The notes under the pieces are model-generated. The model was not told where the DNA came from and did no database searches. It worked only from the letters and a program-made list of their open reading frames with translations. From an uncultured Lachnoclostridium sp. (GTDB lineage Bacteria > Bacillota > Clostridia > Lachnospirales > Lachnospiraceae), in assembly GCA_930986645.1 (NCBI GenBank), contig CAKNJS010000015.1:1-51435 (forward strand): a DNA stretch of 51,435 bases, in the 5' to 3' direction. This document shows, piece after piece, positions 20,114-28,410 of the stretch. The stretch's first letter is position 1; each line of letters starts with the position of its first letter. The translations under genes and the position numbers were made by a program.

Positions 20114-22234
20114 CTATGACAGGCCGTCCAGTCCCGACAGGTCCGAGATATCTTTCCACGAAGGCTGAGCATTTTCAGCTTTAAACTGCTGGTCCAAACT
20201 GTCTCCCATGGTGATCCGGGATTCTGAAGGGGTGCTTTCCAGACTTCCATTACTTATCGTAATTCGGGATATATAAACCTCGCCTGTTCCACGGCTGAAT
20301 TCATATGTGAAAAGTCCTCTCCCGTCTGATGGAATATAAAGAGACATTGCCGAAAAATCCTCCCCTGCCGGCTGCATAGTAGTTCCGCCATTTTCTGACA
20401 GGGTGAAAACGCGGCAATCACGCACGTAGAACGGACCGTCAGCAAATCTTGCTCCGACAATCAGTTCCTCGTTTCCGTCTCCATCCATATCACTGAGGAA
20501 ATACTCATAACTTTCAGCGGAATCTCCCGCGATCGAGAACTCAAATCCAGGCTCATGTGCACTGATCGACTGAAGAACAGATATATATGCATCTTTTACA
20601 GTGCCGGCGCTCTGCGTTCTTTCCGCTGTCCGGGTCTGTCCGGCTTCCCCGCCTGTCTCCTCTGTCTGTAATCCCTGATCCACTTCTTCAATGCTTATGA
20701 TACGGTACAGATCGTTTTCTGCTGGCACAAGCACAGCTTTTTTATTGCTCCTGATGTCTTCACTTGCAGGATCTGCATAGTCACGTTCGAATGTATAATA
20801 AATAGTCATTTCATCTTCGGTATACTCCGCCGATGTAATATCGGCCGATGCCGTGTACCCTATCGTCACCGGAGAGTAAGCAATCATATTTCCGTCCACA
20901 TTTACGCCATACTCGGTATCAGTATCATTCTCCTCCGAATACTGGAAATCAGTGAAAGATGAAAGCAGGCGGTTTACGTCATCCAGAGAGAATGTAACCT
21001 GCCCATTATCGTTTGTTCCATAATATTCTACCGGTCCCTCTCCTCTTCCTTCACCTTCACACAATAAAGGTAGCAGGTACGGAAACTGTGTGGAGTTTTC
21101 AATTCCTCCTTCCGGTATCTCATCCGGTCCATAAGCCAGGACAAACTCCATCTCTTCCTTTGTAAGATTACCCTCAATCAGATTCGGATAGTCTGCATCC
21201 TGCACTTCTGTCACCATCTCTTCCGGAGTCTGTTCTTCCTGTTCCTCCTGAACAGGCTGTTCAGACTCCTTCTGAGGCTGCGTCTCTTCCCGCACCGGTT
21301 CCGGCTCCGAAGTGCTGCGGACAATCTGGTATGCCCCAAAAATCCCTCCGCCAATCACGCACGCTCCTATGATAATAGTTGCCGCTTTTCCTGCGGCTGT
21401 GTGAAGCACCCCGGTCTTTGCGGCTCCCGCTGCTGTATGTGCAGCAGTATGCGCCGTCGCCTTGGATGCTGTCTGAGAGGCTGCTTTTGACGCAGCTTCT
21501 GCTCCTTTTCCTGCCGCATCGGTTCCGGACGACATTTCTTCCATGATTTTGTGCTCCACAGCCTCTCCCGCCGATACGGCTGATCCGTCTGACCACATAT
21601 AAGACGCATCTGTGCGGAGCAGGTAAAGAAGCAGAGGCAGCGGAGCGATTCCGTAGAGCTTGTATCCTTTCTTCTGAAGTTCTTCCGCTCTTGCTTTCAG
21701 GTTCTTTCTTCCGTAATTCAGGCGGGATTTCACTGTATTTTCCGAGCAGTTCATCATCTCGGCGATCTCTCGGATAGGTATCCCTTCTATATGAAACAGC
21801 AGCACACACATCTTCTGCTCTTCTGACAGGGAATCCAGCATCTCATGTACCAGTTCTTTAGTCTCCTGTCTTGTGTATGCCAACTCTGGCTGTACTTCCT
21901 GATTTTCATCCTCGATCTGATACTCAAAATGCTCGTCTTCCTCGTTCACTGCCACGTCGGAAAACAACATGGGATTTCTTTTTTTGGATGCATTTATCGC
22001 TGTATTCGCAACAATCTTTCCGAACCATAACGAAAATAACTCCGGATCTTTCAGAGTATCAAGTTTAGTAAAAGCTCTTATATATGCATCTTGAAGTACG
22101 TCCTTTGCTGATTCTTCGTCTTTCGTATACTGGAGCGCCAGATAAAATTTGCTTTTATATGTCTTCTCGTACAGGAATGAAAAACCTCTCTCATCCCCTG
22201 CTTTTGCCATGCTTACTGCCTCTGTGTAATTCAT
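20114..22234 (-). CDS. ECF-type sigma factor fused to a TM segment and large extracytoplasmic domain
   Basis: 706 residues, far longer than the usual 160-200 for an ECF sigma. Sigma region 2 is about 15-80 (AKDVLQDAYIRAF) and region 4 about 125-180 (LSEEQKMCVLLFHIEGIPI, then CSENTVKSRLNYGRKNLK). Residues 235-285 are a low-complexity Ala/Thr/Lys linker (repeats like SKAAS, HTAAHTAAG). One TM segment, AATIIIGACVIGGGIFGAY, lies at 285-303. An acidic Pro/Glu/Gln-rich stalk follows, then about 350 residues that would lie outside the cell, including a DMDGDGNEE calcium-type motif near residue 625. No separate anti-sigma gene is adjacent, so the fused part may take that role (inference). GAGGAGG precedes the ATG. 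Confidence 0.9.
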   Translation of the reverse strand: MNYTEAVSMAKAGDERGFSFLYEKTYKSKFYLALQYTKDEESAKDVLQDAYIRAFTKLDTLKDPELFSLWFGKIVANTAINASKKRNPMLFSDVAVNEEDEHFEYQIEDENQEVQPELAYTRQETKELVHEMLDSLSEEQKMCVLLFHIEGIPIREIAEMMNCSENTVKSRLNYGRKNLKARAEELQKKGYKLYGIAPLPLLLYLLRTDASYMWSDGSAVSAGEAVEHKIMEEMSSGTDAAGKGAEAASKAASQTASKATAHTAAHTAAGAAKTGVLHTAAGKAATIIIGACVIGGGIFGAYQIVRSTSEPEPVREETQPQKESEQPVQEEQEEQTPEEMVTEVQDADYPNLIEGNLTKEEMEFVLAYGPDEIPEGGIENSTQFPYLLPLLCEGEGRGEGPVEYYGTNDNGQVTFSLDDVNRLLSSFTDFQYSEENDTDTEYGVNVDGNMIAYSPVTIGYTASADITSAEYTEDEMTIYYTFERDYADPASEDIRSNKKAVLVPAENDLYRIISIEEVDQGLQTEETGGEAGQTRTAERTQSAGTVKDAYISVLQSISAHEPGFEFSIAGDSAESYEYFLSDMDGDGNEELIVGARFADGPFYVRDCRVFTLSENGGTTMQPAGEDFSAMSLYIPSDGRGLFTYEFSRGTGEVYISRITISNGSLESTPSESRITMGDSLDQQFKAENAQPSWKDISDLSGLDGLS

Positions 22235-22379
22235 TTTTTCCTCCTCTTTTACCTATAAGCTCTTCATTTTGTAATGTACTTACTACACCCTCATACACTT
22301 TTGTATCTTCATCTGTTTCCTGTCCGAATCCTTTCATATCTTTTCTTATCAGGCAAATAAACCACTGAATAAAACTCAT
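22191..22379 (-). CDS. Possible leader ORF overlapping the sigma gene
   Basis: 62 residues, beginning MSFIQWFICLIRKDMKGFGQ. The ATG at 22379 has GAGGTGA 8 bases upstream, and both lie just after the ECF-like -10 at 22405-22411, so it would be the first frame on the sigma transcript. It overlaps the sigma gene by 44 bp. A competing shorter frame from an ATG at about 22383 encodes 24 residues (MDEFYSVVYLPDKKRYERIR start). Which is used, if either, cannot be decided from sequence. No domain recognised. Confidence 0.35.
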   Translation of the reverse strand: MSFIQWFICLIRKDMKGFGQETDEDTKVYEGVVSTLQNEELIGKRGGKNELHRGSKHGKSRG

Positions 22380-22404: not shown

Positions 22405-22434
22405 CTAAGACAAGGTGAGGGATGAAAAAGTTTT
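22405..22434 (-). promoter_or_regulatory. ECF-like promoter of the sigma-factor gene
   Basis: On the minus strand AAAACTTTTT (22425-22434), then 13 bases, then GTCTTAG (22405-22411). The AAC-type -35 and GTC-type -10 resemble ECF consensus elements such as those of SigV/SigM. The same two elements with the same spacing occur upstream of the neighbouring operon, so the sigma factor probably drives both its own gene and that operon. Confidence 0.75.
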
Positions 22435-22462: not shown

Positions 22463-22815
22463 TTATTCCACCTGTTGCAGCTGTACCCCTTTAAACATAA
22501 GGTCAATATCCCCGCTTACAGGATCATAATCAAAAATAACCTCTTCAACATCGTCCTCTGTCTCTGCATCATCAGGGATCAGATAGATAACGCTTCTCTC
22601 CGAATCGATAGCATATCTTCCGGACAGTGTATACCCGCCCCTGCTCAGAGAAGAGGAATATTCCTCTTCACCTGTCCTCTGCTCAAAGGTGTCTCTGTAT
22701 ATGCCGGCGCACTGTTCTGGTATATTCCCCCCTTCGATACTGCCGCCGGTGCGCCGCACTCCCGGCAGAATCTGTCTCCATTCTCAAGTTCTGTACCGCA
22801 TTTCTTACAATACAT
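22463..22815 (-). pseudogene. Zinc-ribbon protein gene interrupted by a frameshift at a G6 run
   Basis: From the ATG at 22815 (AGGGAGGAG upstream) the frame encodes a zinc ribbon, MYCKKCGTELENGDRFCREC, then a short tail to a TGA at 22645 (56 residues). A second frame continues to a stop at 22463 with a coherent acidic domain (SGRYAIDSERSVIYLIPDD). The two frames overlap between 22645 and about 22759. Adding one G to the six-G run at 22727-22732 would join them into about 117 residues. It could be a mutation, a phase-variable tract, ribosomal slippage at G GGG GGA, or an assembly error. Third gene of the ECF-linked operon. Confidence 0.7.
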
Positions 22816-22856: not shown

Positions 22857-23348
22857 TCAGGCTTTACTGTTGTGCTTCAATATGAACGCGGCAAGCGCAG
22901 ACAGAAACATTGCACCTGCGCTTATTGTGAAGATCCAATATCCCGCGCCGCGTATCTGCATCTCCCCCATAGTGCATATATATATAAGCAGTACAGACAT
23001 CAATATATTCAGGGCCGAACATATAAGAGGCATCAGTCCGCCTTTACAGAGCGCTGATATAAAAGCACATACCGCAAGAAGTATCACTGCTGCCGGAATA
23101 AATAATATAATAGCAGATCCTCCATATTCATTCAATTGAGAAGCAATATTCCCTAATATAGACTTATCCTTTACAGGATTATAGAGTTCTGTTGCCTCCC
23201 CTATATCCGCTGCTCTGTCAAGCACATCTTCTGCAAGTTCTCCTATAAAACTTCCCGATCTTCCTGCCGAATCTGCGCTCCTGCGCAATGCATTCTCCGC
23301 AGTATTCGGTATAAAAAGTGAGATAATGAGCAGAAGTGCCGCTATCAT
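22857..23348 (-). CDS. Small membrane protein of the ECF-linked operon
   Basis: About 163 residues. Hydrophobic segments lie at the N-terminus (MIAALLLIISLFI), near the middle (AIILFIPAAVILLAVCAFIS), then LICSALNILMSVLLIYIC, and at the end (YWIFTISAGAMFLSALAAFI), so four TM segments. The loop after TM1 is about 60 residues and charged. The ATG overlaps the preceding stop codon by one base (a GTG one codon earlier is also possible), pointing to coupled translation. No known family recognised. Probably a stress-induced envelope protein, given its promoter. Confidence 0.72.
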   Translation of the reverse strand: MIAALLLIISLFIPNTAENALRRSADSAGRSGSFIGELAEDVLDRAADIGEATELYNPVKDKSILGNIASQLNEYGGSAIILFIPAAVILLAVCAFISALCKGGLMPLICSALNILMSVLLIYICTMGEMQIRGAGYWIFTISAGAMFLSALAAFILKHNSKA

Positions 23349-23794
23349 CACTCCCGCGTGACCGATATTATACTTTGTCTTCTGCTTAAATCTCTGCGGA
23401 TATCTGACTGCCGCCGTTCCTGCACCCGCTGTGTGATATCCGGCTGATCCTGCTGGCGTGCAAGATTTCTGGCTGCCTTTTCTTCCTGAGCTATTCTCCG
23501 CGCCTCTTCCTGTTCTGTTCTCAGATTTTCAATTTGTCCGGTAAATTTTTCAATCTCGCTTTGCAGTTCTTTTATTCTCTCAAGCTGAGGACCATATTCC
23601 GAATCCGTCTCTTGAAGATGATGCTCCACATAATCTCTTCCAATCTCAAGCGTAATCTTCTCAATTTCTTTTTCATTAAACTTAATGAGCTGATTCAGCT
23701 TGAGCGTGCCAGTCGTATGCGCAACCTTCTGCGACACGCCGGTTGACGCAACCGTATCCATTACCGTGTCTTTTACCCTGTTGAAAAAATCCAT
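23348..23794 (-). CDS. Coiled-coil protein, first gene of the ECF-linked operon
   Basis: 148 residues. The N-terminal 60 (MDFFNRVKDTVMDTVASTGV) are followed by a strongly heptad, charged coiled coil (LERIKELQSEIEKFTGQIEN to about residue 105) and an Arg/Gln-rich tail. No TM segment or signal peptide. I begin at the ATG at 23794: AGGAGGG is 7 bases upstream, and would be too close to the in-frame ATG at 23800. It resembles the small helical proteins often placed beside zinc-ribbon envelope-stress genes in clostridia, but I recognise no named family. Confidence 0.75.
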   Translation of the reverse strand: MDFFNRVKDTVMDTVASTGVSQKVAHTTGTLKLNQLIKFNEKEIEKITLEIGRDYVEHHLQETDSEYGPQLERIKELQSEIEKFTGQIENLRTEQEEARRIAQEEKAARNLARQQDQPDITQRVQERRQSDIRRDLSRRQSIISVTRE

Positions 23795-23847
23795 TTTCAT
23801 CCCTCCTGTTTTAAATGATCAAAGCTGTGTTTTTCACCTCTTCACAG

Positions 23848-23877
23848 CTAAGACAATACTACGGTGCAAAAAGTTTT
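23848..23877 (-). promoter_or_regulatory. Second ECF-like promoter, upstream of the coiled-coil operon
   Basis: AAAACTTTTT (23868-23877), 13 bases, GTCTTAG (23848-23854) on the minus strand, identical in both elements and in spacing to the promoter at 22405-22434. Predicted start is near 23840, about 45 bases before the first ATG. Confidence 0.75.
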
Positions 23878-24016: not shown

Positions 24017-25342
24017 TCAATGTATTTCCTTCGGGAACTGCATCTCGATCTTTGTCCCCCGTCCCGGCATGCTGTCCACTGTAACTTTCGCCCCGTGGAG
24101 AAGTGCGCCGTGTTTAACTATGGACAATCCCAGTCCTGTGCCGCCGCGTTCTTTTGAGTGACTCTTATCCACACGGTAAAAGCGCTCGAAAATACGCTCA
24201 TGGTGCTCTTTAGGAATGCCGATCCCGGTATCGGTCACAGTAACTTTGGGACCATCCAGTGTATTTCCGACCCAGACGGATACCCTGCCGTTATCAACAT
24301 TATATTTCACGGCGTTTTCGCACACGTTATAGATCATCTCATCCAAGATCTGTCGTATGCCGAAATATTTCACCGGCTCGCCGGCCACCTCCATGCGGAT
24401 ATTTTTCTGGGACGCCTGAGGCGAAAGACGGCTGATGATCTCACGGGTAAGTTCGTAGAGATCTACCTCTTCTTTCTCAAGTTCTACAGATTCTTCATCC
24501 AGCTTGGAGAGCTTGATGATATCTTCCACAAGAGTTATAAGACGGCGCGCCTCTTTGTAAATACGCTCGGAGAAGAGCGGAATATCCTCCGGGCGGACCA
24601 TGCCGTTTTTCATGATCTCTGCATAACCGGAAATGGAAGTAAGAGGCGTCTTCAGCTCATGGGAGACATTCGCGGAGAACTCTTTCCGCATATTTGCCAC
24701 AGCTTCTTTTTCCTTATTCTGCCGGTCCATGGCCTCAAGAAACGGGGTAAGCTCGTCATAAGTCTTATTCTCCAGCGGATGCTCCAGATCCAGCTCATAG
24801 ATCGGTCTGACCAGACGTTTTGTCTGCCATTTTGCCAGAAAATAAGCTAAAACCAGCATAATGGCGGCAAGGCCTGCCATAACCGGCAGATTGCCAAGAG
24901 CAGTCCGGATCAGACCATCCATTGATTTGGAGGCGCGAAGCACTGTCCCGTCATCCAAAAGGAGGGCATAATAATACATTTCCTGTCCGACAGTATCAGA
25001 CATCCTGACATCTTCACCCTCACCTGTCGCCAGAGCTTCTTTTACTTCTTTCCTGCCGCTGTGGTTCTCCAGAGTACTTCCGTCTCGCCGCGTATCGTAG
25101 AGGACATCCCCTTTCTCGTCGATCTGTGTCACGCGGGTCGTCCAGTCAACATCGTCCATCTCTTCAAGATACTGTGCGCCGGATATATTGATCGCAGCCC
25201 GGATATATTTTGCTTCCTGCCTGACCTCTGACTCAAGTATAGACAGATTCTGGTTATATAAGAGCAGAGTTAATATTATATAAGAAAGAAGCAGGGTGAC
25301 AGCAAGCACCATCACCATACTTCTCTGGATCTTTTTTCTCAT
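24017..25342 (-). CDS. phoR: Phosphate-sensing histidine kinase PhoR
   Basis: 441 residues. TM1 is about 10-30 (VMVLAVTLLLSYIILTLLL), an extracytoplasmic sensor of about 120 residues follows, TM2 is LPVMAGLAAIMLVLAYFLA, then a short linker, the HisKA box NVSHELKTPLTSISG and an HATPase with CENAVKYN, DTGIGIP and GGTGLGLSI. It phosphorylates PhoP when phosphate is scarce. It overlaps phoP by 4 bp (ATGA) and is the last gene of the pst operon, which is itself the likely PhoP target. Confidence 0.93.
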   Translation of the reverse strand: MRKKIQRSMVMVLAVTLLLSYIILTLLLYNQNLSILESEVRQEAKYIRAAINISGAQYLEEMDDVDWTTRVTQIDEKGDVLYDTRRDGSTLENHSGRKEVKEALATGEGEDVRMSDTVGQEMYYYALLLDDGTVLRASKSMDGLIRTALGNLPVMAGLAAIMLVLAYFLAKWQTKRLVRPIYELDLEHPLENKTYDELTPFLEAMDRQNKEKEAVANMRKEFSANVSHELKTPLTSISGYAEIMKNGMVRPEDIPLFSERIYKEARRLITLVEDIIKLSKLDEESVELEKEEVDLYELTREIISRLSPQASQKNIRMEVAGEPVKYFGIRQILDEMIYNVCENAVKYNVDNGRVSVWVGNTLDGPKVTVTDTGIGIPKEHHERIFERFYRVDKSHSKERGGTGLGLSIVKHGALLHGAKVTVDSMPGRGTKIEMQFPKEIH

Positions 25343-26013
25343 GCAGCTCCTCCGACACGGTAACCGACGCCGCGGACCGTCTGAATGATCTCGCCTTTTT
25401 CGCCAAGCTTCTGCCTAAGTGTCCTGATATGTACATCGACAGTTCTTGTCTCACCGTCGAAATCATACCCCCATATCTCTGTCAGAAGCTGGTCTCTGGT
25501 CAGAACGATTCCCTGATTGCGCATCAGCTTTTCCAGCAGTTCAAATTCTTTGAGTGTAAGGGAAACTGCTTTGCCGTCTACCGTTACTTCATGTTTTTTA
25601 ACATCCACGTGGACACCGGCCATCTCCATATCCATCCGGTCTTCTACCTTGCCGGTGCGCCGAAGCACCGCCTTGATACGTGAGACAAGCTCCATCATGC
25701 CGAAAGGTTTTGTTACATAGTCATCTGCTCCGGAGTCCAAACCGACTACCTTGTCGTACTCCGAACCTTTTGCAGTCACCATGATCACCGGGATACTCTT
25801 TGTCTTCGGTGAAGACTTCAGCTTCTTCAGCAGCTCGAGGCCGTCGTCCCCGGGGAGCATGATATCAAGCAAAATAAGCTCCGGCGTATCAAACGCCAGA
25901 GCCTCCATAAAAGCAGAACCGTCTGCAAACCCTCTGGCCTTAAGCCCGGTTGTCTCCAGTGTATATATTACAAGTTCGCGGATGTTGTCGTCGTCTTCCA
26001 CGCAATATATCAT
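25339..26013 (-). CDS. phoP: OmpR-family response regulator PhoP/PhoB
   Basis: 224 residues. The receiver has acidic DDD near the start, phospho-acceptor in ELILLDIMLPGDDG and Lys in DDYVTKPFG. The C-terminal winged helix contains LLEKLMRNQGIVLTRDQLL and GETRTVDVHIRTLRQKLG, the OmpR/PhoB type. It binds the Pho boxes predicted upstream of pstS and of the phosphonate operon. It lies 51 bp after phoU and is coupled to phoR by a 4-bp overlap. Confidence 0.93.
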   Translation of the reverse strand: MIYCVEDDDNIRELVIYTLETTGLKARGFADGSAFMEALAFDTPELILLDIMLPGDDGLELLKKLKSSPKTKSIPVIMVTAKGSEYDKVVGLDSGADDYVTKPFGMMELVSRIKAVLRRTGKVEDRMDMEMAGVHVDVKKHEVTVDGKAVSLTLKEFELLEKLMRNQGIVLTRDQLLTEIWGYDFDGETRTVDVHIRTLRQKLGEKGEIIQTVRGVGYRVGGAA

Positions 26014-26064
26014 CTTTTCAGTTCTCCTTCTTTTCTATCTTAATATAAGATCCTTATTTTGAAT

Positions 26065-26733
26065 TCAGCCTTCGTGAATGACTGCACTGTCTTTGTGTAC
26101 GCCTGTGATAGAGAATTCAACCCACTCGGCAATATTTGTCGCATGGTCTCCAATACGCTCAAGGTATTTAGTCACCATGATCAGATCGAATATCCTCTTT
26201 CCGTTTTCACCTTTTTCCTCTTTAATGAAGGCAATCATCTCGTCACGGACTTCGTCGAAGTACTGATCGATCTCATCATCGGCTTTCATGACGCTCTGCG
26301 CCAGTTCAAGGTCTCTGTTTACATATGCCGTCACACTGTCGCGGACCATCTTGCTGACTTCCGATGCCATTGTACCGATCACATGGATCTCCTCTGTTGC
26401 CGCAACGCCCTTGGAGGAAATGATAATCTCGGCGATATCAGATGTCTGGTCTCCGATACGTTCCATATCTGTGATCATCTTAAGCGCCGCTGAAATTCTT
26501 CTCAGATCCTTTGCAACCGGCTGCTGCTGCAGAAGAAGCTTCAGGCACAGTCTCTCGATATCCTTTTCACACTGATCGATCTCCTCATCCTCTGAAATGA
26601 TGATCTTTGCCTGTTCGATACTGCCGTCTTTGAGTGCCTGTGTTGCTTTTGAAATTGCTGTCTCGCAGAGTTCTCCCATATGTGTAAGCTGCTCTTCAAG
26701 AAGATGCAGCTGCTCATCAAACTTGTTACGCAT
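26065..26733 (-). CDS. phoU: Phosphate signalling protein PhoU
   Basis: 222 residues, all helical, with the two PhoU repeats and their metal-binding E/D-rich motifs (IISEDEEIDQCEKDIERLCL in the first, MKADDEIDQYFDEVRDEMIA in the second; ERIGDQ and ERIGDH mark each). It links the Pst transporter to the PhoR kinase and keeps signalling off when phosphate is plentiful. It follows pstB by 3 bp. Confidence 0.97.
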   Translation of the reverse strand: MRNKFDEQLHLLEEQLTHMGELCETAISKATQALKDGSIEQAKIIISEDEEIDQCEKDIERLCLKLLLQQQPVAKDLRRISAALKMITDMERIGDQTSDIAEIIISSKGVAATEEIHVIGTMASEVSKMVRDSVTAYVNRDLELAQSVMKADDEIDQYFDEVRDEMIAFIKEEKGENGKRIFDLIMVTKYLERIGDHATNIAEWVEFSITGVHKDSAVIHEG

Positions 26734-26736
26734 AAC

Positions 26737-27507
26737 TTAACCAAACCTCCCTGTGATATAATCCTCTGTTCTCTTATCTGCCGGTATTGAGAATAGTTTT
26801 TCCGTATCATTGTACTCGATCACTTCTCCAAGAAGGAAGAAGGCTGTATTATCGGACACACGAACCGCCTGCTGCATATTATGTGTAACCATGACTATAG
26901 TATAGTCTTTTTTCAATTCCATGGCAAGGTCTTCGATCTTTGATGTAGAGATCGGGTCAAGGGCGGATGTAGGCTCATCCATCAGGATGACTTCCGGCTC
27001 TACCGCAAGTGTTCTGGCGATACAGAGTCTCTGCTGCTGTCCGCCGGAAAGTCCCAGCGCACTTTTGTGAAGTCTGTCTTTGAGTTCGTCCCAGATTGCT
27101 GCCTGACGCAGACTTCTTTCAACGATCTCATCAAGTTTGGATTTCTTTTTAATGCCCTGAATACGCGGTCCGTAAGCCACATTATCATATACGCTCTTCG
27201 GGAACGGGTTCGGCTGCTGGAATACCATTCCCACTCTGTAGCGGAGTGTGATCTCATCCATGTCTTTATAGATGTCCTTGTTATCCAGCATAACAGTACC
27301 GTCGATCTTACAGTTTTCTACAAGATCATTCATTCGGTTCAGTGTTTTAAGGAATGTAGATTTTCCACATCCTGACGGTCCGATAAATGCCGTAATCTTA
27401 TGCGCCTCTATCTTCATATTGATATCTTTAAGTGCATGAAAATCCCCATAGTGCAGATTCAGATTACGGATATCAAATTTATATGAATTATTCTTATTCT
27501 CTTCCAT
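26737..27507 (-). CDS. pstB: Phosphate ABC transporter ATP-binding protein PstB
   Basis: 256 residues. Walker [10 protein letters not shown], signature [13 protein letters not shown] and Walker [14 protein letters not shown]. The PstB-specific [20 protein letters not shown] stretch confirms the subfamily. It hydrolyses ATP at the inner face of the PstA-PstC channel. Confidence 0.98.
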
Positions 27508-27534
27508 TTCTGTATCCTTTCTCTAAAATTGAGT

Positions 27535-28410
27535 TTACGCGCTTTCGCCTGCATTCTTTTTATTGATGTGCCGGCTCAGTGCATTTGCTCCGATACTGAA
27601 CAGCAGGACCAGAATCATCAGCACTGCCGCCGCAAGGTTGGCAAGATCCGAATCCTGACCGTTGATCTGCAGATCCCAGATCTGCAGCGACAGAGTCTGT
27701 GCAGGACGGAATATGTTCAGCGGACATGTGGGCGATGACAGATCCCAGTTATTCCAGCGGATATCCGATCCGGAACCTGTGGTATACAGAAGGGCTGCCG
27801 CTTCACCGAATCCTCTTCCTGCTGCCAGAATGACTCCCGTCATAATCCTCGGTACACATGCCGGAAGGAGCACATGGAAGATGGACTGCCAGCGGGTAGC
27901 GCCCAGTCCTAAACTGGCGTGCAGGTAGTCGTCAGGAAGACCATTGATCGCATCCTCTGTTGTCGTCGTAATGACAGGAATCGCCAGAATCGAAATCGAA
28001 AGCGCACCTGCCAGAAGACTCTTGCTCAGTCCGAAGAATACAAGGAATACCAGGTATCCGAACAGACCTACTACGATGGAGGGAAGGGAGGACAAAGTCT
28101 CAATACAGATCCTGAGGAACTTTGTCAGCAGACCTTTCTTTGCATACATGGAAAGATAGATCCCCGCCATCACACCGAGCGGAACGGAAAATACCAGAGA
28201 GATAAACACAAGATAGATCGTGTTGAACAGCTGGTTTCCGATGCTTCCTTTTCTTTCAAACAGGAACATCTCCTGAGATGCACCTGTAAAACCTTTAATG
28301 ATCACATATCCCGCAAACGCGATCAGCAGAACAAAAAAGAAGACCGCGATCAGATTGAATATGCCCGTCATCATGCCGTTAATGCCGCGCGCACGTTTAA
28401 TTCTGTTCAT
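27535..28410 (-). CDS. pstA: Phosphate ABC transporter permease PstA
   Basis: 291 residues, six TM segments, with the permease loop LHASLGLGATRWQSIFHVLL. The long periplasmic-side loop near the end (SDIRWNNWDLSSPTCPLNIF) is typical of PstA. It pairs with PstC, whose stop lies 3 bp before this start. Confidence 0.96.
   Translation of the reverse strand: MNRIKRARGINGMMTGIFNLIAVFFFVLLIAFAGYVIIKGFTGASQEMFLFERKGSIGNQLFNTIYLVFISLVFSVPLGVMAGIYLSMYAKKGLLTKFLRICIETLSSLPSIVVGLFGYLVFLVFFGLSKSLLAGALSISILAIPVITTTTEDAINGLPDDYLHASLGLGATRWQSIFHVLLPACVPRIMTGVILAAGRGFGEAAALLYTTGSGSDIRWNNWDLSSPTCPLNIFRPAQTLSLQIWDLQINGQDSDLANLAAAVLMILVLLFSIGANALSRHINKKNAGESA

Follow-up and report, generated by a model that had tools for sequence, protein, structure and literature searches.

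Several ECF sigma factors have been described that are linked to the membrane or regulated by a membrane protein. In Actinobacteria, the groups ECF48, ECF52 and ECF53 combine a sigma factor with a membrane helix and an extracytoplasmic part, and proteolytic release is expected for them (PMC8999054, PMC5826349); for the ECF52 member SCO4117 of Streptomyces coelicolor, positive autoregulation has been suggested in the same reports. IutY of Pseudomonas putida (ECF243) likewise joins a sigma factor and a membrane part in one chain, for which cleavage by both Prc and RseP has been reported (PMC5411451). For Clostridium thermocellum, PMC12203970 describes the SigI/RsgI systems, where RseP cuts the membrane helix of RsgI, and PMC8999054 lists ECF262 and ECF288 (Ruminococcus albus, Blautia producta) as clostridial ECF sigma factors with regulatory extensions. 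Among the titles and abstract openings that we surveyed, no description of a clostridial family of sigma-membrane fusions was found; the main ECF classification lay outside this coverage, and an ECF number could already have been assigned to such a family.

Here we analyzed a stretch of 51,435 nucleotides (the window) from an uncultured Lachnoclostridium sp., in which an initial annotation had noted a sigma factor fused to a membrane anchor and a large extracytoplasmic domain. We report that the sigma factor and the membrane-anchored part lie in one polypeptide and that this arrangement is kept across many genera.

Results

The fusion gene occupies positions 20114 to 22234 on the minus strand, where all other features of the window described below lie as well. 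It starts with the ATG at 22232-22234 and encodes 706 residues without an internal stop, an open frame confirmed by full-length homologues; the plus strand over the same interval is full of stops. Both sigma regions noted initially were recovered above the curated Pfam cut-offs, namely region 2 at residues 21-86 (21977-22174; PF04542, Sigma70_r2, 2.2e-7) and region 4 at residues 127-179 (21698-21856; PF08281, Sigma70_r4_2, 9.4e-15). Region 3 is absent, as in group 4 (ECF) sigma factors, and TIGR02937 (sigma70-ECF, general) was the sole NCBIfam model above cut-off among the best 25 of 90 models. Behind residue 182 of the window protein, no Pfam family scored above its cut-off. The sigma part is followed by a conserved segment (residues 188-207, KKGYKLYGIAPLPLLLYLLR, 21614-21673), by a variable linker of low information content that is rich in Ala, Ser, Thr and Gly (residues 208-266, 21437-21613) and by a glycine-rich membrane helix (residues 285-305, 21320-21382). 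A hydropathy scan located the single membrane segment at residues 287-305 (mean hydropathy of 1.97), which is the same helix that had been placed at 285-303, and the acidic stalk reported along with it extends over residues 306-345 (21200-21319), with Asp and Glu accounting for 32% of the first 60 residues beyond the helix window. The remaining tail was divided by eye on alignments into domain A (residues ~346-530, 20645-21199; 17 orthologues aligned) and domain B (residues ~545-706, 20117-20602), which contains the motif DMDGDGNEE from residue 582 onward. Comparison of tail residues 359-706 with solved structures gave a best E value of 0.064, and a full-length AlphaFold2 model computed with four sequences in the alignment had a mean pLDDT of 36, too low to tell what the conserved segment behind the sigma part does.

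The two nearest homologues were 88 and 86% identical to the window protein and aligned across all 706 residues, and seven further homologues shared 46-59% identity over at least 698 residues. The nearest named relatives place the window's genome close to Mediterraneibacter (Lachnospiraceae). Close orthologues were present in 8 of the 58 genus genomes, the window's genome included. The same fusion, which the initial annotation had proposed to look for in other Lachnospiraceae, was indeed found there, and 37 of 397 genomes drawn from the family had a match at an E value of ≤1e-25. For comparative purposes, we compiled 57 loci, comprising all 16 genus places, 40 of the 43 family places (E < ~1e-25) and the locus L033; the family places left out, G374:C70, G059:C56 and G369:C158, have frames of 595-769 aa. 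The loci yielded 56 sigma-matching frames longer than 300 aa, the window's among them, after a broken copy (L097) and two ordinary sigma genes adjoining fusions had been set aside; one of the 56, L090, ends at a contig border. All 56 carry a hydrophobic segment after the sigma part, followed by a tail of 89-659 residues, a count to be read with the threshold of ~1e-25 in mind, which excludes ordinary short ECF sigma factors by design and favours fusions. The initial annotation had named homologues split into two genes, and homologues lacking a membrane helix behind the sigma domain, as observations that would speak against it; neither was seen except for a split at L097 (G209:C11), where the fusion gene is broken over two frames with the small gene described below still ahead of it, and which looks like a natural decayed copy. 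With 56 of 56 frames fused under a search threshold that favoured fusions, a two-gene artefact was rejected. The genome of the window is a draft of 95 contigs, and an assembly error or a chance joining of two genes could be imagined on that account; however, the same joint recurs in 55 further frames at other loci, and we give this explanation practically no credence.

The fusion is not confined to one taxonomic family. In a search of 291 genomes of the class, at least 16 matches in 11 genomes covered the model as far as the helix part reaches; all 16 that were listed lie in frames of 396-796 aa, and they come from five further taxonomic families. Most of the other class-level matches listed lie in frames of ~200 aa and stop around model position 184-200, and the listed matches also include ECF sigma factors in long frames (G555, 1088 aa; G500, 886 aa). 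In a quick tree of 98 sigma parts, the distribution of fused and plain forms required 2 changes versus 27.8 in shuffles, the second change sitting on long branches and the plain sigma factors being by-catch of the search. A single origin of the fusion is likely.

Across the relatives, the sigma factor, the LY..APxP segment and the glycine-rich helix are kept and the tail is swapped. Over the 56 relatives, segment 190-206 (GYKLYGIAPLPLLLYLL, LY..APxP) carried 2.84 bits per position, sigma region 4 carried 2.76 and linker residues 211-265 carried 1.03. A lysine stands ahead of the helix in 50 of 56 relatives, and glycine is found at helix position 295 in 43 and at position 296 in 52 of them. The glycine fraction of the helix was 0.194, whereas 45 further proteins with a single helix encoded at these loci gave 0.086 (p ~1e-11, with relatives that are not independent). 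Since a second, weaker hydrophobic segment precedes the helix in 6 of 56 relatives, a membrane-dipping role for segment 190-206 is possible. An N-terminal zinc ribbon (CxxC...CxxC) lies ahead of the sigma part in 16 of the 56; HxxxCxxC, the signature of zinc-type anti-sigma factors, was found in none of the 56 within residues 180-330, and linker residues 181-284 of the window protein contain no Cys.

Judged by its composition, the glycine-rich helix would suit intramembrane cutting. Dimer packing is another known property of glycine-rich helices that contain GG, in keeping with a different scheme in which the sigma factor works while still tethered: the tail would signal through the conformation or clustering of the helix and so free regions 2 and 4, with transcription beginning at the membrane and no proteolysis. 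The linker of ~80 residues in the window protein would leave RNA polymerase room for such action, and no protease partner was found among the neighbours scanned beside the gene. Against this, IutY, the nearest studied one-chain relative in design, is cut (PMC5411451), and the truncated sigma part of SCO4117 stays active (PMC5826349). We therefore consider tethered action unlikely, if by no means far-fetched, and favour release by proteolysis.

The tails of the 56 relatives formed 28 similarity clusters, 23 of them singletons, and domain B is replaced or missing in L039, L084, L085, L041 and L033. A Pfam scan of 40 members (best 25 of 33 families) returned BspA-type leucine-rich repeats, SH3_3 and WG repeats in single members and DUF5640 in two. 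The member with the BspA-type match (3.7e-127) is probably L113, a protein of 999 aa whose tail comprises 659 residues. Domain A also occurs without a sigma factor, both in L098, a tail-only protein that is lipoprotein-like by eye (phmmer, 1.2e-36), and in L194, which has a signal-peptide-like start by eye (E value of 1.3e-7). These two occurrences, which are the strongest evidence on this point, together with the BspA-type, SH3_3 and WG-repeat matches in single relatives, indicate that the tail probably lies outside, in agreement with the large extracytoplasmic part that had been proposed. That domain A exists without a sigma factor, and that the promoter appears autoregulatory (see below), would also fit a constitutive separation of the two halves, the sigma factor being a plain regulator controlled through its expression and the tail a separate wall or surface protein. 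The fusion has nonetheless been kept while tails change behind a constant sigma-helix core, which suggests that the link matters, and we rate constitutive separation as quite improbable beside a functional connection of tail and sigma factor.

Calcium had been suggested as a ligand because of the DMDGDGNEE motif. A DxDxDG-like motif does recur in 12 of the 17 close orthologues, but it is present in only 18 of the 56 relatives, it lies where the tails are exchanged most, and the FG-GAP match of the window protein remained below cut-off (E value of 0.056). The motif thus hints at best faintly at calcium binding by the tail, and calcium sensing as a general function was not supported, given the count of 18 in 56. 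No Pfam match to a carbohydrate-binding module, a feature associated with ECF52/53, was found in the window protein.

AAC-type −35 and GTC-type −10 elements are typical of ECF promoters, and both are present ahead of the fusion gene. The window contains AAACTTTTT-N11-TTGTCTTA twice without mismatch, once at 22406-22433, ahead of the small gene and the sigma gene, and once at 23849-23876, ahead of neighbouring genes; 0.14 sites were expected in the window at up to three mismatches, for a pattern that was itself derived from those two sites. In a search of the 330 nt ahead of each sigma gene, AACTTTT-N13-TGTCT was detected for 10 of the 17 close orthologues and not for the other 7, a count that is not independent because L034-L036 are near-identical. 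Nine further sites lie nearby in the 17 orthologue loci, all nine on the strand of the sigma gene, and nine other spacers combined gave 2 sites versus the 10 and 9 at a spacer of 13. These nearby sites precede lipoprotein-like genes in five cases (judged by eye), a secreted coiled protein in two, the 150-aa gene in one and an apparently unrelated gene in one. An OmpA domain is carried by two of the promoter-linked lipoproteins (L035, L079) and by one adjoining a sister-clade fusion (L102). Upstream of the 39 other relatives, the same gap between AAC and GTCT, there with CGTCT, occurred in 7 cases versus 1 over eleven other gaps; TGTCT was not enriched in these 39, with none at the right gap and 3 at other gaps.

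Scanning the 58 genus genomes with a 27-base pattern gave 12 sites in 8 genomes, as against 11 scattered sites for the reversed control, so that only the position of the sites is informative: 8 of the 12 are at the fusion locus and belong to 5 of the 8 orthologue-bearing genomes. A control with a spacer one base longer gave 2 hits in the 58 genomes. The four sites away from the fusion locus are in the window's own genome, in G046 (an identical site), in G004 and in G001:C18, where no clear gene lies behind the site. The third site of the window's own genome has one mismatch (G000:C13:42558-42584, L157) and stands just before another ECF sigma gene, which is followed by one further gene; cross-talk between the sigma factors at this locus is possible.

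Behind the second promoter of the window, two genes are predicted targets. The first, of 150 aa (23348-23800), starts 48 nt behind the promoter, and the second, in the same direction, encodes a 164-aa protein with hydrophobic stretches judged by eye (22857-23351); for neither was a Pfam family above cut-off found. The matched promoters suggest that the fusion protein acts as a sigma factor, and the occurrence of the pattern upstream and nearby leads us to predict that it very probably drives its own operon and adjoining envelope genes.

Other features surround the locus. At 22463-22815, a short zinc-ribbon frame (22645-22815) overlaps a second frame behind it (22463-22759), which could be a continuation of the first; the pair may be a single gene in decay or two separate ones. 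Zinc-ribbon proteins of greater length occur near several other fusions (L085, L092, L102). A phosphate-type cluster at 24017-28410, with transporter genes, a PhoU-like protein, a response regulator and a histidine kinase, adjoins as well, and the kinase, regulator and PhoU genes lie on the same side of the fusion in L035 and L036.

A small gene of 62 codons (22191-22379) begins 26 nt behind the first promoter and overlaps the start of the sigma gene in another frame, its stop ending 44 nt inside the sigma gene. Homologous frames immediately precede the sigma gene in 14 of the 17 close orthologues (not in L040, L041 and L079) and in L089. They share the motif (F/I)xWFxxL(V/I)(R/K)xDMxE, and several of their stops overlap the sigma start. 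A model seeded with 13 of these 14 and L089 (L036 being a near-copy) hit 10 places in the 397 genomes, all directly ahead of a fusion, the broken copy included, 9 of the 10 having been seeds. The finds outside the seeds were L097 (4.6e-5) and L160 of another taxonomic family (5e-16), the latter being the one hit among ten class-level loci. The small frame scored 1.91 BLOSUM per codon, the two shifted frames 0.08 and 0.34, and it is free of stops where each shifted frame has stops in 14 of 14, a contrast that is partly by construction because the frame was picked for being open. Synonymous changes were not dominant, as exemplified by L034 versus L035 with 4 synonymous and 3 non-synonymous codons.

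Some members of the sister clade carry a different, two-helix-like small protein (five seeds). Further cases outside the seeds were L154 (1.9e-9), L108 (4.9e-3) and L042-L046 (1.8e-6 to 2.8e-3), the last with one lipoprotein-like gene in between; away from fusions, the model hit G186:C56, judged to be a chance match, and G065. At L042-L046, in five genus genomes, the small protein, the lipoprotein-like gene and a fusion of zinc ribbon, sigma factor and membrane part are thus arranged as one operon, and these genomes also carry orthologues of the other type elsewhere. When the two types of small protein were compared by hhalign, the E value was 0.0065 and the probability 6%, which is no more than suggestive of homology between them. 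A small gene of either type accompanies 27 of 57 fusions (the 56 and L154), and none was recognised in the other 30. SHOCT-like domains and DUF2089 have been predicted to keep proteins close to the inner face of the membrane (PMC11237479); one of ten sister-clade small proteins gave a weak match to SHOCT-like PF22746 (E value of 5.6e-4, 19.9 bits, below the curated cut-off of 27), and the small protein of the window had no domain match.

Discussion

The computation supports the layout of the fusion, its conservation, the matched promoters and the small gene. The reading that we find somewhat more convincing than its competitors taken together is that of a one-polypeptide transmembrane ECF sigma factor that would be silent when tethered and freed by proteolysis. 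The sigma part would reside in the cytoplasm, with the one glycine-rich helix as its anchor, and the exchangeable tail would be the sensor for a signal from outside the cell or from its wall. In the resting state, the sigma factor would be kept off RNA polymerase by its tether and the LY..APxP segment, probably with help from the co-encoded small protein. A signal received by the tail would lead to a cut outside and then to a cut inside the helix by a site-2 protease, and the freed sigma factor would turn to AACTTTT-N13-TGTCT promoters, both that of its own operon, as positive feedback, and those of adjoining genes that encode envelope proteins, lipoproteins among them. In this scheme, we infer how the sigma factor is silenced, what signal acts on it, that proteolysis takes place and what the small protein does.

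A one-chain switch is supported by the identical layout in 56 of 56 frames and by segment 190-206 being as conserved as region 4. The class-level matches that span the helix, all 16 listed being in frames of 396-796 aa, argue in the same direction, as do the glycine-rich helix, the site-2 protease gene and the promoters at a spacer of 13. The published accounts add that IutY is cut and that the same is expected of ECF48/52/53. Release would probably proceed by intramembrane proteolysis. The genome holds one site-2 (M50) protease gene, the presence of which says little because such a gene was found in all 14 of 14 control genomes. PMC12203970 reports that ClpXP degrades RsgI fragments ending in XAA, and one may speculate that the glycine-rich helix helps the freed sigma factor to escape ClpXP.

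As a bolder and more tentative proposal, which we would not yet back, the family might represent a new clostridial class of sigma switch with an ancient sigma-helix core and free exchange of sensors, silenced by the LY..APxP segment and a co-translated two-helix microprotein instead of an anti-sigma domain. The microprotein could then conceivably be a new kind of anti-sigma factor or a membrane adaptor, an idea that we hold equally loosely. If the one-chain switch is real, a single chain would reach from an outside signal to the promoter, which is about as simple as signalling across a membrane to a sigma factor can be, and it would operate with exchangeable sensors in many genera of gut Clostridia. 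The matched promoter offers a ready reporter, the modular tail invites sensor swaps, and the conserved segment and the small gene are concrete suspects for the silencing of the sigma factor.

Set against the systems described so far, the window protein resembles ECF48/52/53 in that one chain unites an ECF sigma factor, a helix and an extracytoplasmic domain, and it shares with ECF52/53 the placement of the helix and the presumably outside domain behind the sigma part. However, ECF48/52/53 have a zinc finger between sigma factor and membrane, whereas the window linker contains no Cys and HxxxCxxC occurs in 0 of 56 relatives; the family also differs in its tails, in the small co-encoded gene and in belonging to Clostridia rather than Actinobacteria. 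IutY likewise holds sigma factor and membrane part in one chain, but it comprises a fused anti-sigma factor for iron signalling, which works with an outer-membrane receptor, unlike the window protein, for which no FecR match was among the best 18 families at an E value of ≤0.1. SigI/RsgI share with the window family the clostridial host and the modular outside domains, yet there, sigma factor and membrane anti-sigma factor are two proteins instead of one chain. The extensions of ECF288, compared by description only, are reported to be Cys-rich (PMC8999054), in contrast to the window linker. Fusions of sigma factor and membrane segment are therefore already known from ECF48/52/53 and IutY, and the window family is a variant among them, to which the present analysis adds a family-wide layout with exchanged tails, matched promoters and a conserved small gene.
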